From Chloroflexota bacterium (GTDB lineage Bacteria > Chloroflexota > Anaerolineae > Promineifilales > Promineifilaceae): a stretch of 48,703 nt of DNA. This document shows positions 1 to 33,602 of the stretch, one piece after another. How positions within the stretch are numbered: position 1 is the first letter of the stretch; the number at the start of each line of letters is the position of its first letter. Under the pieces are notes generated by a model. That model saw only the letters and a program-made list of their open reading frames with translations. It was not told the origin of the DNA and searched no databases. Location of the stretch: positions 1 to 48,703 of the forward strand of contig JAGNBF010000004.1 in the NCBI GenBank assembly GCA_018004935.1, in the 5' to 3' direction. A program made the translations under genes and the position numbers.

Positions 1-871
1 CGAAACTATTTGTGGTGGAAGGCGGCACTCCTGTATACAGTTCGGGTGACAGAGATACCCAAGACCCCTCAGGTGCGGTGTCAGAAATCGTTAGCCCTTC
101 TGTATTACGAATTGCTTCTCCTAACAAAGTGCCTACAACTTCAGCAATCTCGCTCGTTTCGGCTAGAAAAAAGGAAAGACCACCAGTAGCCTCAGAAATT
201 TCTTCATAGAAAAACGCAACCTCGCTTTCTGTATAAACTCCTATTACGGTAATGTTAGAATTTCTTATATCACGCAAGATATTGTCTTGCCTTAAATCAT
301 CTGAGGTTCCTAATACACCATCTACCCCGGCATCAGGATCATGAGCGATTGAGTCGCCAAAAATAATAACTATCCGGCGTGCATCTTCCCGCCAACTAAA
401 GTTTTGGGACTCATATAAAGCACGCAAATAAGCCTCTTCAAAGTCACCACCGCCACCGGTAACAATATTATCCAATGCTGTTTGGATAACGCCATTGCTT
501 GCCGTAATATCTGCATCCTGTTGCCAGGCATAGGGATCATCGTAATCACCAAAAGTACCAACAGCAAAATTTGAATCAGGGACTAGTGTACGCACATTCG
601 TCATGATGGTGTTTGCGCCTGATGTAGCACTATCAATCAACCCCTCCATACTGCCGGTAATGTCAAAAAGAAAAGCAACGTCCAACTTTGGAGCTGTAAC
701 AGATGGCGTTGTCACATTGATTGTCTCAACCGTACAGCTTCCTTGCTCTAACTCAAGCGATAATGATGATGGCGTTATAACCCCTTCTTGCGCTTGAACA
801 GGAAAAGCAAAATATATGATGGCTAGAAACAAGATTGTTAGCAAAATGCCTTTGAGTGACTTGAATGACAT
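1..871 (-). CDS. Secreted VWA-domain protein, 3' end outside window
   Basis: The reading frame is open from ATG at 871 to the left edge, about 290 residues, so the C-terminus is missing. Residues 1-28 form a signal peptide (basic start, hydrophobic stretch, cleavage near FPVQA). A VWA domain follows: LDVAFLFD ends at D70, giving a metal-ion-dependent adhesion site of the form D70-x-T72-G-S74, the DxTGS variant seen in integrin-beta-like VWA domains. A second conserved-looking acidic stretch, FGDYDDP, comes about 35 residues later, and IIFGDS near the middle fits the fourth strand. The product is expected outside the membrane, binding a ligand through a divalent cation. It is the last visible gene of the long minus-strand train and lies 154 bp after the preceding gene. 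The VWA fold is clear; the ligand is unknown. Confidence 0.85.
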   Translation of the reverse strand, partial: MSFKSLKGILLTILFLAIIYFAFPVQAQEGVITPSSLSLELEQGSCTVETINVTTPSVTAPKLDVAFLFDITGSMEGLIDSATSGANTIMTNVRTLVPDSNFAVGTFGDYDDPYAWQQDADITASNGVIQTALDNIVTGGGGDFEEAYLRALYESQNFSWREDARRIVIIFGDSIAHDPDAGVDGVLGTSDDLRQDNILRDIRNSNITVIGVYTESEVAFFYEEISEATGGLSFFLAETSEIAEVVGTLLGEAIRNTEGLTISDTAPEGSWVSLSPELYTGVPPSTTNSF

Positions 872-1025: not shown

Positions 1026-2969
1026 TTACCGCAAGGGTTTGACCCAACTGTCCCCTTGTGCCTGAAACCCTTGTGCTGATAACAAATCAGACTCATTCAA
1101 CAAATTGGCAGGAATTAGTATCTCTGTTGCCTGTTGCTCTCGTGCCCATTGCTCAAACTTCTCAAGCATTTGTTTGCCTACTCCGGTACGATAATCGCGT
1201 TGGTTACGTAGGTTCCATTCGGTGAGATGGGCTTGCATGGTTTCAAGACTTCGTCCGGTGCGTTGGTCTTGGTGTGTAGATTTGCGTAAGGAAAGCCTGG
1301 CATCACCCATGGTCTGTTTGTCATCAGCTACCTGTAGGATTATTTGCATGTTGTTTCGTTCATCAGCTGAAGATTGGTGACGGAGAATAAGAGTTCGGTT
1401 AGATTGGTCTGAGAAAGATTCAGTAACCCAGCCATGCGCCACATCTCTTCCTACAGGTGGTTTGACAGGTTTGATACCTTTGGGATCGACACGTGGTTCA
1501 GGTCTATTTAATGGGCGAATGGTCGGTGGTGCAGGCACCTGGCCCCTACCTTGCCACCAGCGCCACAAAAGCCAGAGCAAAAGCAGGATGATGGGGATCA
1601 ATAATATCCACCAGGGGAAAGCCGCTAACAGACCAGAAACAGGAGAAACGGGAGAAACAGGTACAGCAGGGACATCTGGCAGATCTGGCACATCTACCCC
1701 TGGTATTACAACCTCATCCGGGGTTACGGTTATGGGTGGAACATTCGTAACGGGTTGTGGTTCTGTTTCTGGTTGAGCACTAATCATCTCTGGCGTTGCT
1801 GTAACTTCTGTAACGGCAGTCATGCCTACTGGTGTAGATGTTACAGTGCTGTGCGGATAACCATTACAGTCAAGCCACACAATACCGCCACTAATACCTA
1901 CGGCATCACTACCAGGTAAACGAAATCCATACTCAAGATCAAGCGAATCATCAAAGGGAAGGCGACCAATATCCCAAATGACCCTTGAACCATCAACTCG
2001 TCCGCCAGAACCAGTAACATTGAAGATTTGGGCATTACCTGCTGGTGTTAATTCTTCAATGACTTGAATCGCGGCCGCAGCCGTATCCGTATCTCCATCT
2101 GTCACCGAAAGAAATAAGTCATACATCTCTATAGGCGTAGGATCAATAAAAATTTTGTCGTCGTCTGTTAACTGCTCCGCCGTTGCCAGATCAAGTTGTG
2201 AGTCAACAGGAATGTTAAGGCTATTGATAATAAGGTAGATTGGGATCCCTTGAGATTGAAACTGCGTTATCGCAGTCTCCATTTCCAAGAAACCCGCATT
2301 ATCATGTAACATCAGCACAATAGCCTGCTCACGGGTTGGGCTTTTCACTTTTGCTAACTCGTCACTCGCCAACTGTAAACCCGCCGCTAAATTTGTATCA
2401 TCACCAGGTGTGATAGCCGTTGCCTGGTTCCGCAACAGTGAAAAATCTTCCGTCAGCGACTGTACCAATATTGGTTCAACTCCTAATGTCCCAATACGGC
2501 TACTAACTAAGCCAACACGCGACAACTCTGGTATCCCTGTCGGTGATTGATAAATGGGACGAGCCAATTGATCCAAAAAAGCCTGTGTTAATAAAAAGGT
2601 GGCTTCCCAATTGGAACCTGGGCCAATTCCTGCACTGGCCGAAATATCATATACCAACATGACATCAACCGGCTTCCCAGGAATACCCCAGCATGATGGG
2701 TTTTGAGATCCAGACAGTTGAATATTGGCAGTAATATCTTGACCAACCACCAAAGTTGAAGGGCTAATCTGTCGTTGATATGGATTTGTGATCGAATCAG
2801 ACACGGGGCCAGGAATGTACGCTGGCGTTGGCGTTGGTGTAGGTTCCACAGTCTGTGCGTAAACGGAATCAGGCAAGAATCCTATTAACATGAACAACCC
2901 TAGAAACAATAACAGTCCTACCCCAACAAAGGGTTTTATTATGTGGCTACCATGCTGACTCTTTTGCAT
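1026..2969 (-). CDS. VWA domain - TM helix - cytoplasmic GNAT-like fusion protein
   Basis: Predicted 647 residues. The ATG at 2969 is chosen because AGGAGG lies nine bases upstream; an in-frame ATG at 2996 would add nine residues. Residues 12-38 are a signal or anchor segment, followed by a PTPTPTP linker. The VWA domain has its MIDAS motif DISAS at D108. A Val/Pro-rich stalk precedes a strong TM helix at about 451-473. The last 130 residues are cytosolic and look like a GNAT N-acyltransferase: HLTEW, then the acetyl-CoA pyrophosphate loop RTGVGK (about 594-599) at the start of a long helix, then LLSAQGF and a final WVKPL strand. GNAT enzymes transfer acyl groups from acyl-CoA to amines; here an outside ligand sensor seems joined to an inside enzyme or acyl-CoA-binding domain. 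VWA and TM are certain; GNAT is a fold-level reading, and activity is unproven. Confidence 0.85.
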   Translation of the reverse strand: MQKSQHGSHIIKPFVGVGLLLFLGLFMLIGFLPDSVYAQTVEPTPTPTPAYIPGPVSDSITNPYQRQISPSTLVVGQDITANIQLSGSQNPSCWGIPGKPVDVMLVYDISASAGIGPGSNWEATFLLTQAFLDQLARPIYQSPTGIPELSRVGLVSSRIGTLGVEPILVQSLTEDFSLLRNQATAITPGDDTNLAAGLQLASDELAKVKSPTREQAIVLMLHDNAGFLEMETAITQFQSQGIPIYLIINSLNIPVDSQLDLATAEQLTDDDKIFIDPTPIEMYDLFLSVTDGDTDTAAAAIQVIEELTPAGNAQIFNVTGSGGRVDGSRVIWDIGRLPFDDSLDLEYGFRLPGSDAVGISGGIVWLDCNGYPHSTVTSTPVGMTAVTEVTATPEMISAQPETEPQPVTNVPPITVTPDEVVIPGVDVPDLPDVPAVPVSPVSPVSGLLAAFPWWILLIPIILLLLWLLWRWWQGRGQVPAPPTIRPLNRPEPRVDPKGIKPVKPPVGRDVAHGWVTESFSDQSNRTLILRHQSSADERNNMQIILQVADDKQTMGDARLSLRKSTHQDQRTGRSLETMQAHLTEWNLRNQRDYRTGVGKQMLEKFEQWAREQQATEILIPANLLNESDLLSAQGFQAQGDSWVKPLR

Positions 2970-2996
2970 TGTTGTATTTCCTCCTACCACGTTCAT

Positions 2997-4247
2997 TTAT
3001 CGTTTAGGTGGACGCGTAGATCTTCCGTGTGTTACGTTTTGCCCACTATCACCCGCTTTCTCTTCCTTACGTATAGGTTTTGTAGGCATATCTCGTTTAC
3101 GCCCTTCGGGACGTACAACCGGGCCAATACTCGGACGACGTAATCCCTGCAAGGCGCGGATCAAAAGCCAAAGTAAGGCCAGCGTAGGCGCAATAAACAG
3201 TAGCCATACGGGAAACAGAACAAGAACTCGAGGCCCATCAGGTGTCACCTGGTTAAGGGGTTGGTTTAAACTATCAATCAGGCTTATCTGACCTGCTTGG
3301 GGGCTTACCTGATGCCAACCCAATGTCTGCGGTTCTAAAATGTACCCAACGGTGCGGCCGCGTTGTCCCACAAATGGCAAATTCCAGGTAATTTCGTTCC
3401 CAACCTGTTGTGCCCGGTAAAGGCTACTGGCTAGAGTAAAGCGTTCATCGTTGTAGTACTCCACCAACGTAACGTCTGTGGCGGCACTACCCACAATTCC
3501 TGCGGCAATTTCACTATAAATTTCAATTAAGGTTGTAGGATCGCTGGCTTCATAAGCATCTGCCTCAGAAGAAGCAATTTGGGAGAGAACGGTCCGGTCT
3601 GCATCTCCCAATGCCACCGTCACAATGCGAATACCTTGACCTTTGGCGAGATCCGCGGCCGCAATAGCCGCACTAGGATTACTTTGACCATCAGAAAGCA
3701 AAATGATTAATGACTGCGTTCCGGCAGGAGGGGATTCAACTGTAAACTGTTGGGTAGCCAACGCAAGCCCGGCATCAATCGCGGTGCCTCCACCATCTTG
3801 AATCCCCTGGATGGCCCCTATCACCTGCCCACGTTCCTGCTCAAAGGGCATCAACAATCCAGCTATATCATCGAAGGCAACCACAGCCACGGCATCGCTT
3901 TCCATTTCCAGTTCTGGGTCCAGATTCATTAGGTCTGCGAAATCAGAAGCGGCGTTACGTGCTTCAACAATCGGTTGTCCCGCCATACTACCGGAACGAT
4001 CTATCACCAAAGCGGCATACACAGGCGAAATATCCGTTGTTGTAACCGGTGCAGGCAACTCTTCTGCATCCATCCGCAACTCAACATCTGTAGTTTCTCC
4101 CCAAAAAACTACTGCCGGCCGCGCCACACGCTGAACGATTCCATCTTGTACAGATGTTCGTGCACCCACTGTACGCGCCAAACCCCAAAGCCCTAGGGAT
4201 ACAACAGCCAAAACCAGCAAAATTAGCTCACCCTTATATCTAGACAT
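2997..4247 (-). CDS. BatA-like VWA protein with two TM helices
   Basis: 416 residues; the ATG at 4247 is preceded by GAGGAAAG. An N-terminal TM helix (about 7-29) and a second one (about 343-366) flank an extracytoplasmic VWA domain with a complete MIDAS, DRSGSM at D83; GGGTAID and the strand LIILLSDG fit the rest of the fold. The C-terminal tail is short, basic and probably cytosolic. The layout resembles BatA/aerotolerance-type VWA membrane proteins, but no MoxR AAA ATPase gene is nearby, so the usual MoxR-VWA partnership is not shown here. A region after the VWA domain (about 255-335) looks like a beta-sandwich. The stop is 27 bp before the chosen start of the next gene, consistent with one transcript. 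It contains two GCGGCCGC sites, encoding RGR and part of an Ala run. Confidence 0.85.
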   Translation of the reverse strand: MSRYKGELILLVLAVVSLGLWGLARTVGARTSVQDGIVQRVARPAVVFWGETTDVELRMDAEELPAPVTTTDISPVYAALVIDRSGSMAGQPIVEARNAASDFADLMNLDPELEMESDAVAVVAFDDIAGLLMPFEQERGQVIGAIQGIQDGGGTAIDAGLALATQQFTVESPPAGTQSLIILLSDGQSNPSAAIAAADLAKGQGIRIVTVALGDADRTVLSQIASSEADAYEASDPTTLIEIYSEIAAGIVGSAATDVTLVEYYNDERFTLASSLYRAQQVGNEITWNLPFVGQRGRTVGYILEPQTLGWHQVSPQAGQISLIDSLNQPLNQVTPDGPRVLVLFPVWLLFIAPTLALLWLLIRALQGLRRPSIGPVVRPEGRKRDMPTKPIRKEEKAGDSGQNVTHGRSTRPPKR

Positions 4248-10028: not shown

Positions 10029-11063
10029 TCAATGTCCATCAAGTAAGGTGGGAATAAGTGTTCTTTCAATCAGGTCTGGTAAAAGCTCATGGATGTTTTC
10101 CTGGACATAGCGAAGCTTTTCCCAGGGATCGGTTTGATCTTTAGTGGTATGTTCGCCACGATCCTGATCGATACTGGCGTATTTAACTTTCGTTGGCGTT
10201 GGGTATTGAATCTCGCGTAACTGTTGAACTGTTTCCCCTACCGCGTAAGGCACCCGGCGAAATTGAAATTTTCCAGGGCCATCGCCGTTTAAGGCCAGCA
10301 ACAGATAAGCCGCTTTGGGATCGTGGGGTACTTCACCGGTTGTGGCATCTTTATGGTTCGCATGACGACGTGGCTGTCCTACACTACCCGGGTTGATTAA
10401 CATGCGTTGTGCAGTTGGTAAAGGGTGCCAGGTGTTAAGAGCGAGTGGTCGCCAATTGGTTTTTGACAGGAAGCCTGTATCAATACGGTAATCTTCAGGA
10501 GGGGTGAGGTGCATGAAGTATTCCTGATATTTTCCCCTTACAAATTTTCCCTGATCACAAAAACACCCTTGATAATGCGTGTGTCCAAACAAACCATAAG
10601 ATGTTTTCAGGTGTTCCAGATTTGTCCTGGCCGATCCATCAGATTCAATACGACCCTCTACTCCAAATAAACTGCCATGAAGCAATGTGAAGTCTTTTAA
10701 TCCATCTGGAGCCACACTTTTCCATTGTGTATGTGTGCTGAGGAATTCCTGATAGCGTAACTCAAGTACATGTCTTGTCCAGAGGTGTATAGGCCAGAAA
10801 TCCGAATGAATTGTTCTGGGCGGGCCTGATGTCACCACATCTTGATCGTGGTTACCACGGATGAACAGGTTTGGCTCTACATTGTCTACAACCCATTGCA
10901 TACACTCATTGGGGCAAGGCCCATAGTCTACAACGTCGCCAAGACACACAAACTGAACTTGCGTCACCTGTGCCTTTTTAGCCTGTTGGCGGGTGTCCTG
11001 TTCCACAGCTTTTAGCGCTTCGTAGTTGCCGTGGATATCTGATAACACTGCATATAAATTCAT
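10029..11063 (-). CDS. Calcineurin-type metallophosphoesterase
   Basis: About 344 residues. The ATG at 11063 is preceded by GAGG eight bases upstream and starts right at the domain; a longer frame to 11198 would overlap the previous gene. The catalytic two-metal motifs are all present: SDIHGN (D9, H11), GDVVDYG (about 42-48), RGNHD (about 69-73), LLHG, and FGHTHYQG. These bind two divalent metals and activate water for phosphoester hydrolysis. The order resembles PP1/PP2A-like and YfcE-like enzymes of the superfamily; the C-terminal 100 residues after the domain are unassigned. No signal peptide: cytosolic. Sharing a transcript with a Ser/Thr-kinase-like gene, it may remove phosphate from proteins of this system, though a nucleotide substrate is possible. 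It starts 8 bp after the TPR-SH3 gene. Confidence 0.9.
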   Translation of the reverse strand: MNLYAVLSDIHGNYEALKAVEQDTRQQAKKAQVTQVQFVCLGDVVDYGPCPNECMQWVVDNVEPNLFIRGNHDQDVVTSGPPRTIHSDFWPIHLWTRHVLELRYQEFLSTHTQWKSVAPDGLKDFTLLHGSLFGVEGRIESDGSARTNLEHLKTSYGLFGHTHYQGCFCDQGKFVRGKYQEYFMHLTPPEDYRIDTGFLSKTNWRPLALNTWHPLPTAQRMLINPGSVGQPRRHANHKDATTGEVPHDPKAAYLLLALNGDGPGKFQFRRVPYAVGETVQQLREIQYPTPTKVKYASIDQDRGEHTTKDQTDPWEKLRYVQENIHELLPDLIERTLIPTLLDGH

Positions 11064-11071
11064 GGCTTGCC

Positions 11072-12232
11072 TCACGGAGATGGTGTAAGGGTTGCTGTAG
11101 ATAATGGTACTGGTGTGTGAGTTGGCACTCCAGGCGTCGTTAAAGCCTCGGGAAACGAACCTGGAAAGCCACGAGTAACTAGACCTGTGTCTATCCACCC
11201 CAAGGGAGTTGTACTATGACAATAATCATTGGCTACCAAATAACGACTACCCGCTTGGGCACAGAGAAATACTTGTTGCCCACTGGTTAGAATTGAAACC
11301 CTTTCATTACCAGTTGCCTCACGGTAAACATGTCCTAAACCGCTGTTATTGATAACCCCTAAATAAGGTTCCGCAGTGGCGGTTGGTGAAGGTGTAAAAG
11401 TGGGTGTGTTGGTAGGTGTGTTGGTAGGGGTGGGCGTAAAGGTTGGCGTATGAGTAGGGGTATGCGTTGGTGTAAAGGTTGGTGTATGAGTAGGGGTATG
11501 CGTTGGTGTAAAGGTTGGTGTCAGGGTTGGTGTCAGGGTGCAGATGATTTCCCCCTCGACACAGGCCCATTCTGGTTTGAGCACAGAATCACTGGTTAAA
11601 GCCCAGGCTGTTATACAGAAAATCAGAATTAACAAAATGCCGATGACAACCGAAATTGTGCGCCGAATTCTGATCTGGCGGGTAATCGTGGTTATTCTGA
11701 TTTGGGCATCGCTATCATTCGGTGCATGACTCAATAAAGCTTGATAATAACCAATAGCCTCACGACGTTGACCCTGGGTTTCGGCTTCCTGGCCTTGTTC
11801 ATACAGCAACTCTATAAGACCAGAACGTGCCTGGGCATTACCGGGATCAAACTCATCCAATTTCTCAAACAGTGTTTTAGCACGAGGGAAGTTATGTTCC
11901 TGGCGGGCGTGTTCACCTTGTTGATATAGGGTGTCAATTCTACCGGCGCGACCTTTTGCTTCATCTACAAGAGCCAGTTCATCAAAATATTGAAAAGCCG
12001 AAGAAAAATCGCGCTGAGATAAAGCATCTCGACCGGCTCGCTCTAACGTATCTAATAACCCATTCTGGGCAGTAGTTTGTTCGGAATCAACTTGAATGGC
12101 CCGCTTGAACGCAGTCACAGCATCGGCATATCTTTTACCATTTAGAGCATTGCGCCCTTCTTCTAATGCTTGAGCAAATGCGGCTCTTTTCTGTAAAGCC
12201 ATTAATTCCGCATCTTCATAATCCGATGACAT
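11072..12232 (-). CDS. TPR - TM - TP-repeat linker - SH3-like protein
   Basis: 386 residues, ATG at 12232 with AAGGAG seven bases upstream, 2 bp after the giant-protein gene. Residues about 15-180 are TPR-like helix pairs ([26 protein letters not shown] and similar), facing the cytosol. A TM helix lies at about 190-212. Outside comes a linker of about 60 residues built from repeated TPTHTP units, then a small domain (about 285-350: [18 protein letters not shown], then [16 protein letters not shown] and GWIDTGLV). That domain reads like a bacterial SH3/SH3b-type fold with two or three Cys. The tail is again Pro/Thr-rich. TPR units bind partner proteins, probably the neighbouring giant or the kinase, while the SH3b-like part may touch cell wall. 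Domain limits are approximate. Confidence 0.8.
11436..11530 (+). repeat. 36-bp tandem repeat encoding Thr-Pro-His linker
   Basis: Two 36-bp units, nearly identical (one C/T difference), start at 11436 and 11472, with a partial third from 11508. On the coding (minus) strand each unit gives 12 residues of the TPTHTP type in the extracellular linker of the TPR-TM-SH3-like protein. Such near-identical units point to recent slippage or unequal exchange, so linker length probably varies between strains. Confidence 0.85.
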
Positions 12233-12234: not shown

Positions 12235-15200
12235 TTATTCTCCTTCCTCATCATTCATCCAGGTTCTTGAGCGGTACGCGTCATAATCCATAGGAGTTAT
12301 ATTGTCTTCATCTAAAGTTTCCGGTGTGGATGTTGTATCCGGAACGGCTTGAGGTTTGACGGGTTCCGGCGGAGTCGTGGGCTTAGGCTTATCTTTTTGG
12401 GCATTATCTGTATCGGTTGTGCGTTTGGGCGGCGCATTATTACCCTTCGATGAATCTTCCGATTTGGGTGTGTTTGTTGGTGTATGGTGAGGTTCAGTAG
12501 CACCTGTATCGGCGGTGCGTTTGGGTGGCGCATTATTGCCACCTGATAAATCAGCCGGGTTGGGGGTATTGGTGGGTGTATTTTGTGGTTCAGCAAAGAG
12601 AGTATCATCCAGTCTTGGCTGATACTTTTTCGCGGCCGCATCCCCCTGCTCCTCAAACCGCTTCGTTGCTACTGTATCCTCACCAGGTCTACTATCAGCC
12701 GCAGTTTCCGGCCGGGATGTGCTTCTATCTGTATATGTTCTGGGACGGCTTTCTTCCTCAAAAGGCGAAGTAGCCGATAGATTCTCAGAGCGGCCGGGAT
12801 CAAATGATTCCGGTGGCGTAGCCCGATCCTGATAAAAACTGACAAAAGCATTACGCCGGGCCAAAATTCTTTTACGAAGCTCCGCCGCTTGCTGTAGGCT
12901 GGCAAAATCCGCTTTAGCGGCCGCGCTATCTTTCTGATTCGTCAGACCAATCAGCTCTTGAATCGGCCCTTTTAAGCGCACCACATCATAGACGGCCTGC
13001 CGCCGCTCTTGTTGTAACCGTGAGACAGTACCCAAAACCGAAGGCAATAGTGCCTTAGCCGCCACTCTCAAAATAGGTTCTGTCGTTTCAAGAACATTCA
13101 ACGCCTGCTGAAAACGATCTTCAGCCACATGCTTCACAACCGTATACATATTCTTGGCATAACCTTGCCATTGCCGGGCCTCCTCAAAATCAGACGCTTT
13201 TCTTCTTATCTCTTCAAAGGAGTCGGAAGCCCCGTTGTAATCTCGATTGCGAACTTTATTTAGTCCCAACTCCATAAGTCGTTTAATCTCATCTACCTGA
13301 CTATTTTTCTTATCCCACTCTTGGGCTAACTGGCGTAGCTCCTCAAACTGACTGCCTGCAAAGTCCGATAATTGCAATACTTCCAGTCGTCGTTTTCGTC
13401 CCGTTTGCTCACGCACGGCGTGACTCGCAAATAGTTGCACAGCTTGATCCAGGTAACGATTGGCACTGTCAAGCTCCCAGCCCTGTAAACTCAGGCGAAT
13501 CTGCCCCAATAAACTCTGCCACCGTTTGTCACGGCCTTCGCCCACTTCGCGTTGCAAGGCGATCAGGGTATTGTGTCTTTCATTCAGTGATAAACCCAAA
13601 GCACAGAAATGGAGTGCATCCGTATAAGCATGAGGGTCATTGGCACTTTGGTTCAATTTCTCTTGGGCTTGTTCTGCTAATACATTCTGAAACTCACCGA
13701 TGGCTTTGTCCGCGGCCGCATACCCCACCGCCTGACCCATTGCCGCCTGTAATGCATCTCTGGCCTGCACCCACGCCTTCATCTGCCGATACCGCCGGTA
13801 CTCGGCTAACTGACTATCCGCCTGACTTACTTTATGGGCCAGGTTGTTTAACTGTTGCCGCAATTCCAATAGTCGCTCATCTGATTTAGCCGTTTCCCCT
13901 GGCCCCACTGCGGCAATGGTTTCAGCTTCCCGAATGCCCTGTTCCGCTCCAACTGCATCATACCGGGCAACTGCCTGAGATGCCTGACTAAGGGCTGCTT
14001 CAAACTGCTCTTGCCGCTCTCTAAACAACCCCCGTGCATACGACAAAGCCGTTTCATTCTCCCTGTCATTCATATCCAGAAACAACTTCTCCAGATATTG
14101 GCCCAAACGAATCGCTTCACCATACTGTTTGATAGCTCGCCTGTTTTGGCTCTGTTCCAACAAATGACGCCGAGCAATTCGTTTCATCATCAACGTCACA
14201 TCGTGCTGGCCTTCTATCTCTTGTGCCTGACGTATGGACTCTACAACCTGATCATAATTGCCCTCTCCCAACACCTTTTCCATTTGTTGTTGTTTCTGGA
14301 TAAGGGTTTGTTCCAGTTGGGTGATCTTGGCCGTCTCTGCTCTGGCACGTGTTATATCTTCCTGCAACTGTTTCACCAGAGGCAGTTCTGCCGCTGGCCC
14401 ATAGAGATCCTGCAAAATGGTCACAGTTGTTTGCCAGTCACGTCGTTCCTGCCAGGCCACCGCGGCCTCTAACAGCTTTTCCCATGACCCCAATTCCTGG
14501 TCCGCTTCGCCCGGCAGGCGTCGCCGTGCTTCCCGCAAAGCGACCTGAACCTGTGCTAGATCAACTCGTGAAGAGTTAAGTTGGTTGATGGCCTGAGCCA
14601 ACCATTCAAAACTATGGGCTTTGGCTCGTAATACATTGGCCTGGGCCGCATAAGTAGAGGTAAACCAGGTCGCCTGTTCCATATCATCTAATATTTCCCG
14701 TGCTTTTTCCCAATCGGGTGGCACAAGTTCCAATGCCTGCTGGGCTTCGGCAATCACCCGCTCCATCACCTGCCGCTTGCATCGTTCGATATCACTCTCC
14801 AGAAGCAAGGCCAGGTTCGGCTCCTGTTTGATGACCGTCAGGAAATGTTTCAAGGCATCTCCCCACAACCTGTCATATTGGGCTTTTTCCGCCTGACGGA
14901 GCAGACGGACTAACTCCCGTTGCCGGTTATAGGCTTCATGGAACAAAGGTGAAATCGTATGGGAAGGCAGGCGCAGGGCCGTTTCGGCCGGTTCGAAGCG
15001 ACGTAGATTTACCTGTTCCTGGCTGAGTTTTAAGGCTTGTTCTGTCTTGTCATAAAGGGAAAGTGCTTCATTCGTCTGGTCATGTAAGGCTTTGGCACTC
15101 GTGCTTTCCTTAAACATGGGCATTGCCAGGGCATCTTCAGTCAGACGACGGGCGCGATCTAGATCCAGCCGCGTTTTTGCTTCTTTCAACAAGGTTTCCG

Positions 15201-18200
15201 CTTTTTCAAGCAAGGCCTGACCCTTGGCCATCGCCTGCGCTCGTTCCTGCTGCTCCTGTTCTTCTTGAATCTTCTCCCGGCGACGCGTCGCTTGATCAGA
15301 TATTTTCTTCAATTCCCAGCCGAGTTCCCCGGCCTCTTCAATTAAGTTATCTGCTTCGGTGGCAATACTCTCTAACAGGTTAACGGCTTCCACGACTTGT
15401 TCTTGTTTTAACATCGCTTCGGCTTGTTGCATTCGCCCCCGCAATCGTTGCGCCAGGGTGTCGTAATACAATTTGCGAATATCTCGGTATGTGGTGGCAA
15501 TTGGTTGTGGCTTCTGGGTCACCAACCATCCTAAACCCGCAATGACATCGTCCAGATCGGCCGGGCTTTGTACTTGCTTGATCAGTTTGCGGAACCGTTC
15601 CATCTCTCTGGCGGCACGACGTTCCACAATCTGTCCTTGAAGCGTCTCTAGTTTCTGGCGAATGTCAGGTGAACTGGTTTGGGACAAGGCTCCTATACAT
15701 CGCTCTAACGCTTCGCGGTAGTTCTCATCTAAAAACTCCCGTTCGATAGGTTCAATAATCTTGGCCTCTTCCTCGGCAATTAGCGTTTGTACCCGCTGTA
15801 ATTGGGCCGGGTCTGCCCCCACAACACTTTGCACCAAGAGCCGTGCTTCTTGAAACAACCCATTTCGAGTCATCTTTTCGGCTCTATCTAACTGCAACTG
15901 GCTGATGAGGGTATAGGTGCTGTCTAATTGTTGCGGCGAAGCACCCTCGACGGCCTGAACAACTTCTCTTGCCTCACGGTATTGATGATTGCGGGCCAAC
16001 TTCTCAGCCGCTTGCAGTTTCTCGGCAATGGGGCGTTCATCCTGGATCTGTTTTAACAACGTGATGGCCGGTGCATAGTTAGGCAGGGTAGTCTCGAGGA
16101 GCGACTCGATGGTAGATTGGGCACGGGCATAATGACGAGCCTGCCGGGCCGTTTCCGCTTCTTTCAACATACTTTGAGCCGTGCGGGTACGTTGAATCTC
16201 ATCCTCAAGTTTTAAGGCGTCTTCGTAGGTGGGATCTTCACTCAGAACAGTCTCCACTTTCTGCCGGGCTGTCTCGAAATCTTGCTCAGCCAACGCCCGT
16301 CGGGCGGCAATAATAGATGAACTTAACTTCCGGCGTCGCTCCTGTTCTTCTTTAACTCTGGCTTTGCCGGCTTCTCGCTCGGCCGCTTCTCGTTCCTTGC
16401 GAGCCTCGTCCTCAGCCAATGCTATTAGGCGGGCCTCTTCCGTTTCTTTAACGGCTTTTTCTTTGAGTCGTTCCACCAGCTTTTGCAAACGGTGAATATC
16501 ACGAAGCACGATTTCAGCATCCGGATTGTCCTGGGCATAACTTAACGCGTCTTCAAGATCGATAGCGGCGATTTCCCAATCTTTCTGCTTGTAAGCTTCC
16601 TGAGCATTTTGTAAGGCGATTCCAGCCTGGGCTGCATAAAGCAAAGATCTGACCTCTTCACCCATGCTTTGCGCCAGTTGTAACTCCTGACGTGCTCTAT
16701 AGAAATCACCTTGATGCAAGAAGTCACTCGCTCTTTTCATACTGTCAGCCCGATCCCGTTGTACCTGACTTCGTTCTTGGGCCTGATCAAGTAATTTTTG
16801 TATCGTCACCCGCAAGGTGGTGTCATGTCTGGGTACATTTTCGAGGGCACGCCCCAGATTCGTAACGGCAGTAGCGAATTCACCCGCATCGAACGCTTTT
16901 TTCCCTTCTTCGTACCACTGTTTACCCTGATCTAATTCCTGTAAGCGTGCCTTGACTTCATCAACTAAGTCTTTATACCGGTCTTGTTCTTCTTTCGATA
17001 GACGTTTCAACTCCTTCTTGGGAAAAGCTTGCAGTTGGGTCAGCCGTTCTTGCAACCCATCTCGATCCGAAACGCGGTTGAGATCAATCCGGGCCGCCGT
17101 CATTTCATCACTCAATTGCTGTCGGACATTTTCTTCAATGGCTGTGGCGATCTGCTTCTGTAATTGGGCAATTTCTTTTTCAAGGCTTGTTAGCCCGCTC
17201 ACATCACCTATCTGGTCCAGTTTTTGTTGAGCCTCATTCAATTTGTTCTGAGCAAACAAGTCACGTGCCGCCGCATAAAATGGTTGTGCCTTTTGATTTT
17301 TCTCTTTTAGTTTTTCCGATTTTGCAATAATGTCAGTGGCTTTATTTTGGTTTTGGGCAACTATCTCTTCACCAGAAAAAAAACCTTCAAATTCGTGAGC
17401 AACGGGACCATAGATCTTTGCTTCAACACTTTCTGCTTCTTTATGGGCACTATCAAAATCGCCATCCTCTAAGGCTTTTGCCCCCCGTTCCAGCCGGTGA
17501 GTTGCTGACTCATTCAACTGATTGATGACCATTTGCTTGGTCGCAGTAACTTGCCTTATGATTTCAGGATCATTGGGTTCTTCTTTCAAAAGAACACGTG
17601 CTGCACGATGTCCTGTTAATTTGTCTTCGATGACAGCGGTCGAGGCCACGACGCCGCGCAACGCATAAGAACGAGACGTTTCCAGCCATTGTGTAACCAG
17701 AACCAGAACCCGTTTCACCAATGGGCTATCAACACTATTGAGCTGAGTCAGCAATGTCTGCGCCTCTCTCCAGTTTCCAGTTTCGGCAAATGCAGTTCCC
17801 CCCTCGTAACTAGCGATTTGTAATAACGCTCTTAAAGCATTCTCAGCTTCTGTTGGTAATCCTGCTCCAGGCTCAAGGAAAATGTCAATGCCCTGCCGTA
17901 ACGCCGCCACCGCATCTTTATAGCTATTGGTACTTAACTTCCGCTGGTAGTCGGCGGTCACATCCTGAAGTCGCTTCTCAAGCTGTTTGCGTTGTTCGAG
18001 ACGGATATATTGTCGCCGAATGTTTTGGTCATTTGGCTCTAACACAGTAACCTGACGGAGAAGATCGAGGGCTTCGGTAATTTCCCCCGTCTGTTCTGCG
18101 ACTTCCGCTTTACCCAATAGTTGCGGAATTTGTCCCCTAACCTGTTCAATGAGGTCTTGTTCAAGCGCGGTTAACGCGGCATCTGTCCCATGCCGTTTGG

Positions 18201-20439
18201 TATACGCCTGGATTTTGACCAAACCATCACGAGCCACCGGGCTACTGGCCGCATCGTAAGCCAGGGTAGCCCGATCGCGTAAGGTCTGTATCTGTGTTTG
18301 TAAAACCAGTAGATCAGCCGGGTATCCCCCTTCAGCCTTGTTGATACGCTCCTCAATTCGTTGCCATGTTTTGGCTGCATTTTCCAGAATGGTCAGAGGG
18401 GTATCATACTTACCCGTTTGGGGGGACTCACCATACGCTTTGTGGGCATCCTCAAGAAATTGCACCAGGCGCGGTTGTTCCTTCTGGATAACATCGCGAG
18501 CACTACGCCAGGTTTTTAGTAGTTGATTCTGTTTCGCTGGCGTTTTTTCTAAGAGGGACAAGGCGGTTTCCAATTCCATCACAGTCTCGGGCCATCTACC
18601 CTGGTCCCGCATCTCTATCGCTTTTTTATAGGCAACCTCGTAAGCTTGCCAGCGCGTTTGCTGGGTTTGGACGTCCTGAAAAACCGGTTCAACTCTTTGC
18701 CGAAGAACAGGTTGTTCTGCACCCAGTTTTTCCAATAAGGTGTTCAGGCGGTTTATGAGAGGCGCAAAATCTTTCGCCTGAATATCATCATGTCTTTCGA
18801 TATCGGCTAATCCCTTCTGTGTCTCAGTCAAAGTAGATGTAACTTCTGGTTCCAGTTCCCCCTCAACCAAGATTCGTTCGCCTTCCCGATTCTTCGGATT
18901 TAACGCCAAGGCTTGATTAGCGTATTGCGCGGCCGCATCATTTTGATTTTTATCCCGCATAGCACGGGCGGCTTTCACCAAAGTAGTTTCCAGCAACCGA
19001 GCAATATCCGGGCCAGAAGGCCAAACATCATAAGCCGCCTGCAATCGGCTCACAGCATCCTGTGGATCGGTGGCTGTCTGCCCACTATTTTTATCCGCCT
19101 CAAACTGGCGCAAAATGGCATCCGCCCGGTTCAGACCATCAACCGCCTGCCTTTGTGTACTCTGTAACAGCGCATTGAGGGCGCTACGGAACTGTTCCGC
19201 GGCCGCGTCCGGTCGTTTTTGCTCTAATAAACGTTCCCCTTCTTTGATATAACCAGCTTCCTTATTAATCCGATCAACTTCACTTTGAAGGGCCGCAACC
19301 ATAGCATTGATGGTTGTAGCCACGGTGATATATTCTCGGCCCTCTTGCCTGGCATGTTCAATCCGTTTTTGGGCGCCCGCTAACGCGCTAAGGGCATCTG
19401 GCCGCTTACCCGCCCGCCAATCTTTTTCCGCTTGTTTCTCCGCGGCCGCGATCTGTATCAAATCATCCGCCTCATCATGCCAGGCCCGTGCCTCTGCATA
19501 CGTCGGATACACTTCTAAAATGCGCTTAAACGCCTTGTCACGGGCCTCTTCAAAATGACGGCGTGCCTGTTCAAATTCCCGATCCGTATTGGCCTGACGC
19601 CCGGCATCTAACTGATGTAACCCATACCGTTCGCCGATTTGTAACCACTTTTGTCGCCAATCCGGGTTTTCAGGAATATTGATACGTAATCCCTCTAATT
19701 CTTGAAAAGCGGCCCCCCACCGGCCTTCCTGATACGCCGCTTCTGCCCGATTTAACGCTGGCTCCACAAGACTCCGTTGTTGTAACTCGGCCTTACGTAA
19801 TCTTTCTACCGCCAAAGGATACTGAGCATACTGAGAGGAAATACTCTGGTACAACTCAATCGCCTCCTTAAAACAGCCTTTATCAAACGCTTCCCTTGCT
19901 TGCCGGAACTTTTGTTCATCCCCTAACTGTTCGTAAATGCGGCGGCGCGTTTGTTCTACCTCTCCACGCAGATCCGTCAGAGCACCATCCTGGGGAATCT
20001 GTGGCAGGAGCTTTTCGATTTGCTCCAGGGCCGCATCCCATTGCTGTTTCTGTTCCAACTGTTGCACCAGTTGCTGAATTTCATTAATGCGCTCGAACCA
20101 GGTTTCCAGGTAAACGGCCTGGTTACGTTTCCGCTCCAGGTCTGGTTGATGAGCCTGGATGCCGTATTGCCCTGCCAGGTTGTAGGCCTGGCTATAAAGC
20201 CCTTGCGCCTTGCGGTATTGGCGCGTGGCCAAAGCCTCATCTGCTTGCTGCTGCAATTCGCGAATCTGGGTATCAGCTGCTTCCAGCCGCTCCAATTCAA
20301 GCATTTTTTGCCGGGCGGTAGGATCATCCGGCCATTGTTGCTGTACCTTTTCGTACAGTTGACGGGCTTCAGCTAATCTGCGTTCACTTAAAGCCTTTTC
20401 GGCTTGATTGAGGCTAATTTGGCGTTCCTGGTTACTCAT
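12235..20439 (-). CDS. Giant TPR/coiled-coil scaffold protein (2734 aa)
   Basis: One uninterrupted frame of 2734 residues; ATG at 20439 is preceded by GAGGAG. Almost the whole length (1 to about 2540) is alpha-helical, made of degenerate TPR-like pairs ([47 protein letters not shown]) alternating with charged coiled-coil rich in Glu, Lys, Gln and Ala. There is no signal peptide and no TM helix, so it is cytosolic. The last 190 residues are disordered, Pro/Thr-rich, with a 32-residue unit repeated twice. Nothing catalytic is visible. It is best read as a rod-like scaffold linking cytosolic parts of the neighbouring membrane proteins; the next gene downstream also begins with TPR units. Six GCGGCCGC sites lie inside it, most encoding Ala-Ala-Ala. 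The size is exceptional; an assembly fusion is unlikely because the style is uniform. Confidence 0.9.
12400..12591 (+). repeat. Two 96-bp tandem repeats in the giant-protein tail
   Basis: Units 12400-12495 and 12496-12591 encode, on the minus strand, two diverged 32-residue copies sharing the pattern EP-x-x-TPTNTP then GNNAPPKRT-x-DT. The divergence (roughly two thirds of positions agree by eye) means the duplication is older than the 36-bp repeat in the next gene. It lies in the disordered C-terminal tail, where length changes should be tolerated. Confidence 0.75.
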
Positions 20440-23408: not shown

Positions 23409-26400
23409 TTACGGCGAAGTGGTGTTTGTCGGTCGCACCGGTGGTACAGGCGTTAATATTGGTGGCACTGGTGTATCGGTAGGTGTTAGTGGCACTGGCG
23501 TTGGTGTATAGGTCGCGGTAGGTGTTGGTGTCGGCGTCACGGCTATGACCCACCGGTTGACTTTCAAAACCAGTTGGGGATGTTGCCGCAACGACAATTC
23601 AAACCCCACGTCTGCGTTGCCAGGGTTATCCACTAAAACAACCCACTCCCAGTCAATGTCTGTTCCATAAAAAGATGGGTTATCCACAAAGTTTTCACTG
23701 AAATAAATAGATAACTGAGCTGATTCTCCTGGTTGCAACGAGTCAATGCGGTCGTTATCGTCAAATCGAAGCAGAAGCGGAGCAAAAACCGTTCCATCTT
23801 CATATAGAAGCTGCAAATTCTGCATGGGGCATGTCGTCCCGGTGTTAGTAATCAGCCAGGTGGCACTGATGTTAGGATTGGACAAGTCGCCAATAACCTG
23901 TACTGTATCCAGGTTTGGTACCAAAATTGGTGATGGACTAACTGTAAAGGTGTACCTGGTAATGTCACGGCATTCGTTAGCTAAATACAACGCCGTAGCC
24001 GTAGCCGCCTGCTCCGTTGCAAAAGCATTAGCCACAGCAGTTCCTTGAACACTATTAGCTGTTGCAATAGCCGCATTCGCCTGAGCCGTTTGAGTGGCTT
24101 CCGCACTAAACCCACCAGCCGCTATTGCATTCTGTGTCAATAACAAAGCCGCATCACTGGCTGCGGTAGTCATTTGGGCGGCTTGCTGTGTTGCCAGAGC
24201 TTGGGCATCAGCAGTAGCATTCCCACTCAATCCAGCCGACTGTGTAGCCTCACGAGTCAGCAATGCAAAATATTCAGTCGTAGCGGTACCGGAACGTTCT
24301 ATCTCTTGTACTCCTGGGCGGTAAAACCCAAAAACGTAAACGATTGTGCATAGAAAAACCAGTAGAGGTACACCTATTACTGTATTTCGTATACGACGGC
24401 GTCTGATTTCTTCTGGTGATAATCCCCCCAGCGACTTATCCACTTCCTGGGCCAGGGCATGCAGGCTCTGCCAGGTCTTCACAATTTCCGGGGCCACCGG
24501 CAAAGGCGGTTTCTCTTTCAGCCAGGGTAAGGTAGCCACCCTCACATATTTGCAGTATCGGCGAATCGTAGCCCTTTCCCCTTCGCTTATTTTTGGGGGC
24601 GTTTTTTGCCCTTTCCCATTCTGCGTCTGTCCGTCTTCTACTTTTGCTCCCCCTACCCCCAACAACCGGCTTATGGCCTCATACGCTGCCTGAACAATAC
24701 TCTCACCCGCCTGCGACGCATCACGAATAAACGCCTCTAACGAAGCCACCGCCGTCTGGTCGTTTGTTACAACGGCCCGTAGCTGTTCTTCCAGGCTTTG
24801 AATCAAATCCGCCCTTAAATCAGCATAACCACGCCGCACAATATCCTGCTCTGGCCCTAACAACCACGCCCAACGGCCATCGTCCGTCTGGTATTTTTTG
24901 TCAATCTGCGCCAGATGCTGCGACAACCCGGCCATTGGTTGGGGTGGGGTCTGGCGATATGTCTCATAAGCGTTCTGTAAAGTCTGTAGACACGCTTTGA
25001 GCCGCTCGATTTCTTCAGACAGTCCCGGTTGTGTCACCTCTGTGGGCACAGCAGGCAGGCTCTCTTGTACCGCCAGGATCGTTTCCTGTGCGGCCGCGAC
25101 CCGCGACGGGCGGTACTTCCGCCCCCCATCTGTATCTGTTTTGGGTTCATCTTTCTCGGATTCGCCCCCCTCCGGGTCGGTGCGCTGTCCCGTTTCCAAA
25201 TCGTAGTCAGCCCAGCCCTTAAACTTAACCACCACGTCAGCAAATTTGTTAAGCTGCTCCCGGTCTACCGGCAACTTGACCACTTCCAAAACAACCGCAG
25301 GCAATCCGGTGGGCATACGACGACTGATCACCTCGTCAACGAGTTGGCTAACCTTTTTCAAAATAGCCTCGGTTTCAGCCAGGTCACGACCACGACGCGC
25401 TAACGATTCACCCGGTTTTTCAGATTGACTGAATTTTTTGACAGCTTGTTGCCATAATTTATCCAATAAACTTGTGGCGATAGGATCAGGGGTGTTTGTG
25501 GTTTGTGGGGCCTCATCCTGGCCCGATCCATACGGGTAATGAGCGGCTTGAATCCAGCGCGCCTGCGCGTATAAACCCAGGAAAGGTTGTATCTCACTAT
25601 CGGATTGACTTAACACGGCTTTACCACTCACCACCAGTTTTTCTACTAACGTCTCGTAAACAGTTTCCGCCCGATTTTTCAAAGCGGTACGTAAGGCACG
25701 GAGTTTGGCACTCAACTCAGCCTTTGTTTGTGGGCTTAACTTCTCGCCACTATCTATTTCATTTATGGCTTCAAAGAGGGCATTTATTACCTGGGCGTAC
25801 TCATTTTCATCAATTGGGGTGGACAGTGTCTGGGTTTCCCAGGTTTTGCCTTTCTGCCAATCCGCTAATCGTGTTTGTAAATCAGCTACCGCGACATGAC
25901 GATCTTGTTCTTGTACATCTACCGTCGCGACTTCCTGAACCGCTTCGGCAAAGGTCAGCGCGTCTTTCCCGGCCCGGTTGAGGCGATCCAAAACAGCCAT
26001 AAACTGTTCATCCGCCGTAAGGCGGCGTGTGAGAGCCGGTAACAACCGGGCAAACCCTTCTTTGCCCACATCCGCTGGCAATAAATTTTGCAAATCCGCC
26101 GGTATCTGCTCCCAAATATGTTGCGCTTCTTTTTGCGCCGCCTGAAAATCCTGTTTTTCCTGACTGAGACGGCGTGATGTCTCCAGGGAAGGTTGTAGTA
26201 AAGCCACCAGATAATCAATGAGGTTTTTAGTCCACTGGTCGGCCAGCAACGTCAACTGCGACCAATTGGGTGTCGTTCTTAACTTTAACAACCCGTCATC
26301 TTGCCCGGCCCACCGTAACAAGGTGGCATTCAGGTTGGCCGTATTCATCATCCAGTTGGGAGGGGTATCCGGCCATTCTTGCCCTGGCTCCACCAGAGCT

Positions 26401-29135: not shown

Positions 29136-29145
29136 GAAACCCTCG

Positions 29146-30093
29146 TTAAAACAAACTGTGCGCCTGGTAGTTGAGGAAGAAGAGAGTGCCATCTTCGGTT
29201 GCGGCCGCGATCGAACTCCCTTTGCTCATTGCCAGATCATTAACATAGGATTGAACCGCTACCGGTTCAGTCAACACCCGTCCAGTTTCCGTGTCTAACA
29301 CAGAAACATCACCCTGATAGCCACTGGCTATCGCTAAAAGATGGCGACTCCGATCCGCCGCCAAAGCGGTCACCGGTTCGCCATACTCAACTTCCCACAA
29401 AAGATCCGTCAGATCGGCACTATAAGCCTGTAGCCAATAGCTGTACCCATCGTTGAAGACAATGGCAATACCTGCCTTTTTGGGGAAAACGGCAAAACGT
29501 GTAATACGCCCTTTGAAGGAACGACCATTTTGCCATTCTCCACTCAGCGCATCCAACACAACCAATCGGTTGGTCCCGGATCCGGCACTGGCTATATACA
29601 GATGATGACCCGCTTCATCAAATCCAACTGACCAATTAGAACCATCCGTTGCATTACCGTTATCCGAATGCCGTTGCCAAACAATATCTCCCTGAATATT
29701 GGCAACCGCTAAGGCTGACCCATAGTGACCAATCCCCAATAATTCGCCTTGTTCAGCAAGGGAAATCGTGTTCAGGTCATTATCAGCAAAATACAACACT
29801 TGTTCCTGGAACGAGAAACCTTCTCCTTCTCGTTCCAGGTTCAAACGTGTAACAGCCCCGCGACGCGCGCCCACAAGGAGATACGAAAAATTAGCGGATC
29901 CTACAACCAGATGCATGGGCCAAGCCTGCGGTGGGTAGCGCAAAAGCACTTTGCCACTGGTATCAAAGAGAAGTAAACCATTGTCTGTAACAACGGCCGT
30001 ATACTGTCCATTAGCCGATTGGGCAACCCCATAAGCGGGTTCCCCTGGTCTACTTATAACCAATCCGCGTTTAACTTCCAGGCTCTGGCTCAT
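29146..30093 (-). CDS. Beta-propeller (WD40/PQQ-like) protein
   Basis: 315 residues; ATG at 30093 follows AGGAG. The sequence is a series of about seven blade-like units of 40-45 residues: strands such as YTAVVTDNGLLLFDTSGKVLL, LLGIGHYGSALAVANIQGDIVW, LYIASAGSGTNRLVVLDALSG and LLAIASGYQGDVSVLDTETGRVL, each ending in a hydrophobic-D-x-x-(S/T)-G turn. There is no signal peptide, so it is cytosolic and probably a protein-protein platform. It lies between the tubulin-like and kinase genes with 10-15 bp gaps. Whether it should be called WD40 or PQQ-like cannot be decided by eye. Confidence 0.82.
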   Translation of the reverse strand: MSQSLEVKRGLVISRPGEPAYGVAQSANGQYTAVVTDNGLLLFDTSGKVLLRYPPQAWPMHLVVGSANFSYLLVGARRGAVTRLNLEREGEGFSFQEQVLYFADNDLNTISLAEQGELLGIGHYGSALAVANIQGDIVWQRHSDNGNATDGSNWSVGFDEAGHHLYIASAGSGTNRLVVLDALSGEWQNGRSFKGRITRFAVFPKKAGIAIVFNDGYSYWLQAYSADLTDLLWEVEYGEPVTALAADRSRHLLAIASGYQGDVSVLDTETGRVLTEPVAVQSYVNDLAMSKGSSIAAATEDGTLFFLNYQAHSLF

Positions 30094-30108: not shown

Positions 30109-33100
30109 TTACACAGCAACCCCTTCCGATTTCCGATTCAGTTCTCGAATCTCTTCCTGCAAAATAAGGTGCATAACCGTTCCCATATCCACCACCGCCG
30201 ACGAAGGGCTTGTTTCAAACATACTGACCTTATTTTCTAGAAATGGAAGCAAATATCGTTTCAATCTATTCTGGGCATTCACTGCTTCACGTCTACGGAT
30301 ATCTGGTTGTTCCTCATCTGTTGGCCCAAGTTGTTCCGTCAAATCACGAATCGCCTGGTTTATATCGCGCAAACGAACCGTGAATGGATTTTGAATATGC
30401 CCTAATGAAACACCGCGACGATTAAGTGTATCTACCAAAGTGGCAACCATTTGTGTAGCCACTCCCTGCTTTTCGATCACCTTCAGGTTGAAGTTTTGTA
30501 AAGCGTTCAGATATAAACGAGCAATCTGATCGCCCGCCCCAACATCTGTAAAACGGGGATCAATTTCCCGCACAACACGGCTTTGACTCAAAGGCAATTC
30601 CCGTTTGTTACCATTTACCATTAAGGTGAGAATAATCTCTGTCGTTTCGGCCCCTGTATCCGGATCAAAGAAAGAGCCATCTTTTATCAACCCATAACCA
30701 CAGGCCAGCGTAAAGGCCTTGATAATAGTTTCATTACTCATGGTAACAACAACTTGAGGGGATAAAGGTCGTTGCCGGTTGTTAGGATCACCTAATCCTT
30801 CAATTCGTCCTTCATAATCAGTGGCTACCTGCTCTTCTGGAAAGAGATGGATACTTTCCCGTCCCTTAAAGAGCTTGGTTCGATAATCCGGTTCACAAGC
30901 CACAAATTGATCCACTGCTTTTAACGCTACACCCCGTGCTACCTCAACAACCGTACAAGCGACTAAACTTTCAGCCCGGTTATCTACATTGAAGCCGTTA
31001 TCCCCTAAGGTTGTACCGGCTTCACTCAGGAACTTACGAGCCTGATCCGTTGCTTTCCCCACATTGAATGACACATACCGCTCGTGGAACATTTCCTTAC
31101 CATTACCCGCCGGGTTATAGCGTAAAAATGGCTCCACAATCTGTTGCGAGATGTTGACAAAATGTGAAGAGGATGTAAACATTTGACCGATCCGGTCTGC
31201 GGCCGTAACACTTTGGCGTACCACCTGGAACAGGTCTTTCACACCGACAAAAAACTTCTCGGCAATTTCTTTGGCACCTTTGGCCTCTTCCCCCCAGGTA
31301 GTAATTAGCTTGTATTGCAATGACTCGGTGTCATCGGTTCGTTGCCAGTTCATCCCCCGTTGCCCACGAACCTGCCCCATGACGCGAGGATAAACCGTAC
31401 CCCAATGGGCCCGTTGTTGATAAAGTTGTTTCTCAAACTCATCATCTGTCAGATAACGACGCACCCGAACGCGTTTCTTGGCTTCGCGGTTGTCGTTATG
31501 CTGTTGTTCCCATTTCCGTACGATTCCTTGCACTTCAGTAAAGGTAGCCTGCCAGTTTTCTAATTCCAGTGCCACCCGATCCACAATACTCAAATTGCCA
31601 TCTTTGTCTTGGTCGGCCGCTCCCAAAGCATCTAAAATATCCAACACGGTTCTAAATATCCGTTGGTGCAACACCAATTCCATTCTATGCACAAAAGCGC
31701 CCACATAAGCTTCTTGCGCCTTGATCGCATCCGCTTTACCAAAAAGAGGTTTACGTTGATCCTTGGTGTTTTGCATCCAGGTTATGCAATCGCGTACTTC
31801 TTCACTCGTCTGGCGAATACGTCCATCTAACCCAACCTCGCGATATCTCTCTTCCAACAAAACGCGAAATTTTACGAGACGGTTTTTTAGCGTTGCCACA
31901 ACACGTCGCGCATAGGGCAGACGGGCTGGCTCCAGTAGTTTGGTTTCGGGATTACGGCGATTAAGAATGTCCAATAAAGCCCCATCAAGGGCTTCAGAAA
32001 ATCGTAAGACCAACGCATCACGATAAGGGGCCAAAATCTTGTCCCATTCGCCACCCAAACGGGAGTTTTCATCATCGGGATCAAGTTGTGGTCCCAAAAA
32101 ATCATCCATGAATTGCTCACCAAAATTCGACAAACGGACATACCCTTCACCATAAACTTCCTTCTTATAATCTCCATCTCCCGAAGGGATCATATTGCCG
32201 GAAAGGTATGCCAGTGATTGGTCTAAATCCTGGTAATCTTGAGCAAAGGCACTATCAGATAAGGCAATCATGCCAAAAAGTCCTTGCCAATCCATGGCTG
32301 GGCGTTCTGGCTCTACACGACGTGTGGCGGCAATTGCTTTTTGAATTAGCCCTGGGTTTACTCGTTCTCCGATGCTATTTTGGGAGAAGACACGATCTGA
32401 TTCTTTGAGAGCCATTTGCTCCAGTTGACCTTCTTCTTTTTTATCTTTGAGAGGCAGGAATTGTTCTCCCAACATCTCTTGCAAAAACCGATAGGTAAAA
32501 CTCTCGATCACATCGGCTACCGGGAAAATATAGGTCATCACATTAAAGCCACTATAAATCCAGCCTTCACCTTTGTCGTAATGTAAACCGGCATTGGAAC
32601 GCAACGTGGCTAAGGCATCGCCCAGACTTTGATCAACATGAGCCATCACAAAATCAGCCACAGCCGGAAATACACCCCGCATGGGATTACCTGTTAATGC
32701 TGTATCCGAACTGGCACTACGGCTGGCCGTATCTACAAGATAAACATGATCCATAGGCTGATTCGTACTCCAGGTGATGGAGCGAATATCTAAGCCATAA
32801 CGAATCATGTAGGGGAATTGATTGCTGTGGACACGATTAAAGCGATCCAATTCACGAAGCGCGGCATAAGAATTGGGTTTGAGATTCGTGGGATCGTCCA
32901 TCGTACTGGTGTACGAGCTGAACGCATCAGGTAACACGATGATTCCGGATACATCTATGGACTGCCAGTTATTGTTAGAATGAATAGCATGACGCACCAG
33001 ATTGGCTACATCAATAAAAAAGCCAGAGCCTGTTCCACCGGCCACAGAGCCAATAATGAAGACCATCCGTTTGCTCTTTTCAATGTCAACCGTATCAACG

Positions 33101-33579: not shown

Positions 33580-33602
33580 CTTGGTATCCTCCAAATCTTA
33601 GA

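Follow-up and report, generated by a model that had tools for sequence, protein, structure and literature searches.

A VWA protein with a predicted transmembrane helix and a diverged GNAT tail in a vWA/FtsZ-like gene cluster of a Chloroflexota bacterium

Operons that combine vWA and FtsZ-like genes were described in 2010 as uncharacterized complexes in which vWA is fused to varied domains (Makarova and Koonin; PMC2875224). A later account of vWA/GTPase-centred conflict systems (eLife 2020, PMC7159879) places a GCN5-like acetyltransferase among the vWA-associated effectors. Given these precedents, the union of a VWA receptor with a GNAT-like domain, which the first-pass annotation of the present locus put down as an unrecognized combination, is less isolated than it appeared. 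With respect to the specific arrangement, searches of the open PMC literature returned no paper on an outside VWA joined via a transmembrane (TM) helix to a GNAT, none on membrane-anchored GNAT fusions or on acetylation of FtsZ, and no relevant paper on Tubulin_2 with vWA in Chloroflexi.

The window, that is, the whole stretch of 48,703 nucleotides that was analyzed, forms the first part of a 154-kb contig in an 8-Mb, 229-contig genome. From position 36113 down, the genes of the cluster all lie on the minus strand (Table 1); four VWA genes besides the one of interest (product P0002) share this strand with the Tubulin_2 gene, whose Pfam family, PF13809, we take to be FtsZl1. Also present are a weakly matched ATPase, encoded between the 635-aa and 416-aa VWA-TM proteins, and further proteins with an N-terminal hydrophobic segment. 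The cluster matches the published vWA/FtsZl1 operons, with which it shares a tubulin/FtsZ-like gene, membrane or secreted vWA proteins with a mostly intact MIDAS, kinases and lineage-specific membrane proteins; it differs in its GNAT, acetyltransferases being absent from the main text of the paper by a term search (PMC2875224). With the vWA/GTPase-centred conflict systems it shares a GNAT and a tubulin system with a vWA that is predicted to be extracellular; in that source (PMC7159879) the GNAT is listed as an effector with MoxR-centred vWA ternary systems, whereas no MoxR-type AAA+ ATPase was found among the cluster genes scanned here (all but 7353-8123 and 12235-20439, in a cluster cut by the contig end).

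The genes for Tubulin_2, the propeller-like protein and the long protein with a kinase-like start occur in the same order in the genomes G683 and G548 (L072, L073) and constitute a conserved cluster core, the kinase match being weak and coming from G548. An FHA-like tail of the 836-aa VWA protein (33606-34100), suggested by inspection by eye, was dismissed, Pfam giving nothing there at E<=1. A known anti-phage defense system was likewise dismissed: PADLOC, run on seven cluster proteins, gave weak matches for two and none that was convincing, and at E 0.01 it returned 0 families for P0002, its VWA neighbor (2997-4247) and the Tubulin_2 protein. Elsewhere in the window, at 38904-46569, genes for a maturation protease, the NiFe large subunit, the Oxidored_q6 small subunit, FlpD, a flavin/Fe-S protein and CCG and Fer4 proteins make up a nickel hydrogenase cluster, and a gene of the polyketide-cyclase type is embedded in it.

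Table 1. P0002, its features and the neighboring cluster genes, in order of window position.
Feature	Position	Strand	Basis
VWA protein cut by contig end, 35% identical to a VWA protein of G417	2..871	-	Pfam, homologue
P0002, whole gene of the VWA-TM-GNAT protein, 656 aa from ATG	1026..2996	-	ORF reading
GNAT-like, predicted cytosolic domain, residues 524-656 (profile match 545-634)	1029..1427	-	Profiles, shuffles, model, fold search
Putative acyl-CoA loop RTGVG, residues 603-607 (YRTGVG; Y at motif-A first position, not Q/R)	1176..1190	-	Residue reading
Predicted TM helix, residues 452-482	1551..1643	-	Hydropathy, charge bias
C377 of invariant DCNG motif (partner candidate C102 at 2691-2693)	1866..1868	-	Alignment
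VWA domain, residues 112-257	2226..2663	-	PF13519/PF00092, homologues
MIDAS D232	2301-2303	-	
MIDAS T201	2394-2396	-	
MIDAS DxSxS, D117-S121	2634..2648	-	Alignment, residue reading
N-terminal hydrophobic segment, residues 18-47 (..VYAQ), probable signal peptide	2856..2945	-	Hydropathy
Second VWA-TM protein, 416 aa, short tail; stop abuts P0002 ATG	2997..4247	-	Pfam, hydropathy
VWA-TM protein, 635 aa	8125..10032	-	Pfam, hydropathy
Metallophosphoesterase (PF00149)	10029..11198	-	Pfam
TPR protein, beside 2734-aa gene	11072-12232	-	Pfam
2734-aa protein, TPR-like repeats by eye	12235..20439	-	
1927-aa protein, N-terminus weakly kinase-like (PF00069 E 0.0044, below cut-off)	23409..29192	-	Pfam
Beta-propeller protein, matches all below cut-offs	29146..30093	-	Pfam
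Tubulin_2 (FtsZ/tubulin-like) protein, 1161 aa (PF13809 E 2.3e-45)	30109..33594	-	Pfam
VWA-TM protein, 836 aa (37% homologue adjoins P0002 homologue in G548)	33603..36113	-	Pfam, hydropathy, homologue

The plus-strand frame at 1026-2996 contains stops throughout. Of the limits given by the first-pass annotation, 1026-2969, the end at 1026 stands, and 2969 is an in-frame internal Met (residue 10), residue numbers in that annotation being 9 below those used here. P0002 consists of a probable signal peptide, a VWA domain with an intact MIDAS, a linker, one TM helix and a predicted cytosolic tail. Third-position GC (GC3) is 0.446 in the GNAT part vs 0.372 in the VWA part and does not indicate loss of the frame.

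By Pfam, the VWA domain of P0002 falls below the cut-offs, both for PF13519 (E 7e-5, 23.8 bits vs a cut-off of 27) and for PF00092 (E 0.0035); the assignment is made because homologues align over 290-470 residues and because the MIDAS is complete. The homologues share 35% identity (G553, over residues 29-478), 29% (G548, over 25-522), 27-29% (G454, G594 and G457, over 42-487) and 28% (G318, over 42-433) with P0002, and the G553 protein itself passes PF00092 (33.1 bits vs a cut-off of 23.8). All MIDAS positions, DxSxS...T...D, are present in P0002 as D117, S119, S121, T201 and D232; in a four-row alignment that counts P0002, the first three are invariant, T201 is kept in two rows and D232 in three. 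The only cysteines of P0002, C102 and C377, both lie in the ectodomain and are invariant in four aligned homologues, and probably form a disulphide that closes the VWA ectodomain.

Two hydrophobic segments were detected in P0002. The first, residues 18-47, is a probable signal peptide that would be cleaved. The second, residues 452-482, is flanked by a net charge of -5 over 420-452 and of +5 over 484-520; because of this bias and the positive-inside rule, the VWA domain is predicted to lie outside and the tail inside.

A profile of the VWA and TM parts was run against 396 genomes of the class and, at E<=1e-8, found matches in 41. Among the 30 loci returned, a tubulin-like match occurred in the same ORF in nine, a GNAT in one (P0002) and neither in 20; most of these ORFs run off the locus, so that tails may be missed, and no TM is seen in many of the 20, which may represent different VWA proteins. 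P0002 is the sole VWA-TM-GNAT protein seen in these 30 loci, and no second one was found in the family, in the class (by the 396-genome profile) or in the contig searches. A tree built from 13 ectodomains places P0002 in one group with two Tubulin_2-tailed homologues, those of G318 and G553, and with that of G548, whose tail is unassigned (support 100/100); branching inside this group is weaker (89/88, 66/55), and long branches were flagged. In G318 and G747, one TM separates the VWA part from the tubulin part. These and other VWA-TM-Tubulin_2 fusions, including that of G553, share a homologous ectodomain and TM with P0002 but possess Tubulin_2 as the cytosolic domain where P0002 has GNAT. The tail of the G548 homologue (L081:9365-11386), about 200 residues, returned nothing from Pfam at E<=1 and matched neither GNAT nor tubulin. 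The gene that comes after it in G548 encodes a homologue (37%) of the 836-aa VWA protein of the window, and a Tubulin_2 protein encoded on another contig is 56% identical to that of the window. Given the grouping of the P0002 ectodomain with two Tubulin_2-tailed homologues and one with an unassigned tail, GNAT appears to occupy the place of tubulin. Thus, as judged from sequence comparison, the cytosolic part of the VWA-TM subunit changes between relatives, and this membrane subunit is modular, with the GNAT as a new kind of tail.

Several other features of the relatives were observed. A CAP-domain (PF00188) protein is encoded just before the VWA-TM gene in G548 (L081:8184-9380), and a similar secreted domain is seemingly present, by eye, at the start of the VWA-tubulin fusions of L083 and L084. 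Single chains of about 1850-2140 aa (L080:6271-11829, L083:7745-14155) combine VWA, several TM helices, an intervening stretch and Tubulin_2; in L080, this intervening stretch is a PD40 propeller by Pfam.

The tail of P0002 is a diverged GNAT. This identity is carried by profiles, shuffle and ORF controls and a steered model, and is weakened by the fact that each GNAT score is weak when taken alone. The tail matches PF00583 (Acetyltransf_1) at E 0.017, with 15.9 bits vs a gathering threshold of 20.7, so that membership in PF00583 is not claimed, and among the 62 PF00583 matches at E<=1 in its own genome it is one of the weakest (E 0.081). It further matches the acetyltransferase family phrog_1249 (PHROG 1249) at E 2.5e-4 and the sequence of a putative acetyltransferase, PDB 1vkc, at E 0.49. 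The best curated NCBIfam match is the AAC(6') family NF043067 (E 3.2e-4), aligned through motif A, with 20.6 bits, which is far below the 140-bit cut-off. Across the libraries, acetyltransferases thus rank first for the tail.

A profile of 37 GNATs, ten of them AAC(6')-like from the same genome family and 27 from the same genome as P0002, matched P0002 at E 8.4e-5 among 2256 ORFs (about 20 bits); apart from three P0002 copies, all of its 80 matches lay within loci fetched by the GNAT search or by the tail, and it had no match at E<=10 in 1362 control ORFs from 72 loci fetched for other reasons. With the own-genome profile (B), the tail scored 14.0 bits vs 10.6 for the best shuffle, and with the combined profile (AB) 22.9 bits vs 13.1, scores that none of the 2000 shuffles attained. 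The AAC(6')-like rows of profiles A and AB were picked by the tail's match to that family, which biases both profiles in its favor, and both included one wrong-frame row (L128) that was taken out before the 37-GNAT run; B is free of this bias and of that row.

Descent of the tail from Elp3 was considered and rejected: when 30 Elp3 domains of the class were made into a profile, the tail scored 7.8 bits, with the best shuffle at 6.5, vs about 20 bits for the general GNAT profile. The likeness to Elp3, by which the tail is the second match of an Elp3 probe in its own genome (E 0.021) and an Elp3 domain is the best PDB match of its model, probably stems from the reduced N-terminal helices of the tail. 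A search for tail orthologues in the family (52 genomes, E<=1) and the class (298 genomes, E<=0.1) repeatedly matched residues 20-74 of the 160-aa tail to ORFs some 460-580 aa long, matches that were attributed to chance; those whose frames were read (L023, L029, L030, L033) are, by eye, Der-type GTPases. Among matches that span motif A, those read were mostly ordinary soluble GNATs. No close relative of the tail was detected in the family search, the class search or scans of genome contigs.

Structure prediction and a fold search, proposed in the first-pass annotation as checks of the GNAT assignment, were run on residues 505-656. An AlphaFold model steered by 48 GNATs has a mean pLDDT of 76.5, with ten-residue blocks from model residue 61 onward at 83-95 (one at 67), and consists of five strands, a helix, a strand, a helix and two strands. 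The GNAT core is confidently modeled; given the steering, the model attests to compatibility with this fold and is not independent of the profile evidence. The whole protein predicted as a single sequence, with no GNAT rows, yielded no usable fold (pLDDT 38.7). The top 50 Foldseek matches of the steered model are nearly all acetyltransferases by title, and the best PDB matches by VIA-align are the GNAT domain of Dehalococcoides Elp3 (Z 12.7) and AAC(2')-Ia (Z 12.0). Thus, profiles, topology and model bear out the proposed order of an outside VWA, one TM and an inside GNAT fold, the topology being a prediction.

The RTGVG, QGF (642-644) and WVKPL (651-655) motifs singled out in the first-pass annotation are all present. 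Within motif A, Q/R-x-x-G-x-G/A, the tail keeps GVG and has Y at the first position, where, by a rough regular-expression count, 27 of the 37 reference GNATs have R or Q and ten have another residue; by the same kind of count, the alpha-4 position occupied by Y or H in 27 of the 37 is L in the tail. A Glu conserved in ten AAC(6')-like relatives (YLEGW/YVEGW) is replaced by Thr (HLTEW) in a hand alignment, and the alpha-4 His of this group is not kept. Ordinary GNATs have two helices ahead of the core, whereas the model shows strands in this region, with the acceptor-side helices reduced. Binding of acyl-CoA by the tail looks possible; catalysis is doubtful because the acceptor-side helices are reduced and the usual active-site positions differ.

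We tentatively propose, with a confidence that falls somewhat short of even, that P0002 crosses the membrane once and belongs, as a subunit, to a surface machine of the vWA/FtsZ-like (Tubulin_2) kind, with the GNAT tail as an acyl-CoA-binding docking or gauge module. The MIDAS-type VWA would bind a partner or surface ligand outside, one helix would span the membrane, and the reduced GNAT, placed inside where close relatives have Tubulin_2, would most likely bind acetyl-CoA or another acyl-CoA. As a docking or gauge module, it could link the outside VWA with the tubulin, kinase-like and TPR components that the cluster has in the cytosol; the partner and the direction in which a signal might run are presumed. 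It could acylate a partner from the cluster at the membrane, or it could act without catalysis, in the manner of PanZ, which, according to PMC3496974, binds CoA and activates PanD non-catalytically rather than by acetylating it. PanZ/PanM (YhhK) is a small GNAT of 128 residues (2k5t), of which 102 align to the tail model at Z 10.7 and rmsd 2.5; it differs from P0002 in having no VWA or membrane part, in its partner, PanD, and in being confined to some gamma-proteobacteria, according to the same source. This analogy is weakened because many other GNATs also match at a Z of about 10. The adaptor reading as a whole is weakened because it rests on a single instance, with no second VWA-TM-GNAT protein or close tail relative, and because the gene lies 27 kb downstream of the tubulin gene within the cluster.

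Conceivably, P0002 could instead be an active membrane-tethered N-acyltransferase, with VWA occupancy controlling the acylation of a cytosolic partner, for example a Tubulin_2 lysine. The GNAT core and GxG loop are present, the nearest profiles by sequence are those of AAC(6')-like enzymes, and GNATs can act on tubulin, the tubulin acetyltransferase 4h6u being among the Foldseek matches of the tail, outside the best; nevertheless, the replacements at motif A, alpha-4 and the AAC(6')-like Glu, together with the reduced acceptor helices, make this unlikely. We assign the same likelihood to a decayed or accidental fusion, in which a GNAT fragment captured behind the TM helix persists as a neutral appendage that does nothing with acyl-CoA: the fusion occurs in one genome only, no orthologue attests to its conservation and several usual GNAT positions are changed, but the frame is open to the natural C-terminal strand WVKPL, GC3 bears no sign of frame loss, and all strands and helices of the GNAT core are modeled. 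An assembly artefact, by which two unrelated genes, one VWA-TM and one GNAT, became joined near a contig end of this draft genome, is very improbable. The gene does end 1 kb from the contig start and has no independent copy; however, the join is inside an open frame, and the next gene past it (2-871), which has the same orientation, again encodes a VWA protein, one that is related to those of the relatives. Least probable among these alternatives is that the tail is another alpha/beta or beta-rich domain, perhaps resembling that of the G548 homologue, which has no GNAT match. This would accommodate the failed single-sequence prediction and the Pfam score below the cut-off, but it is at odds with the agreement of three libraries and our own profile on GNAT, with the empty controls (0/1362 ORFs, 0/2000 shuffles) and with GNATs being the best PDB matches of the model.

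A bolder version, which we regard as rather improbable, is that an outside, metal- and ligand-dependent VWA switch sets the state of a cytosolic GNAT that acylates the Tubulin_2 of the cluster or, with acyl-CoA bound, docks to it. If true, such transmembrane, acyl-CoA-dependent control of a tubulin-like machine would be the bacterial equivalent of tubulin acetylation, governed from outside the cell. The GNAT tail is a small soluble domain that could be assayed for binding of CoA and tubulin. Furthermore, the occurrence of an inner domain that is tubulin in some species, GNAT in one and unassigned in another suggests that the inner side docks to, or acts on, the tubulin machine. The apparent picture that emerges from GNAT and tubulin tails on the same surface part is that of one machine with interchangeable inner parts.
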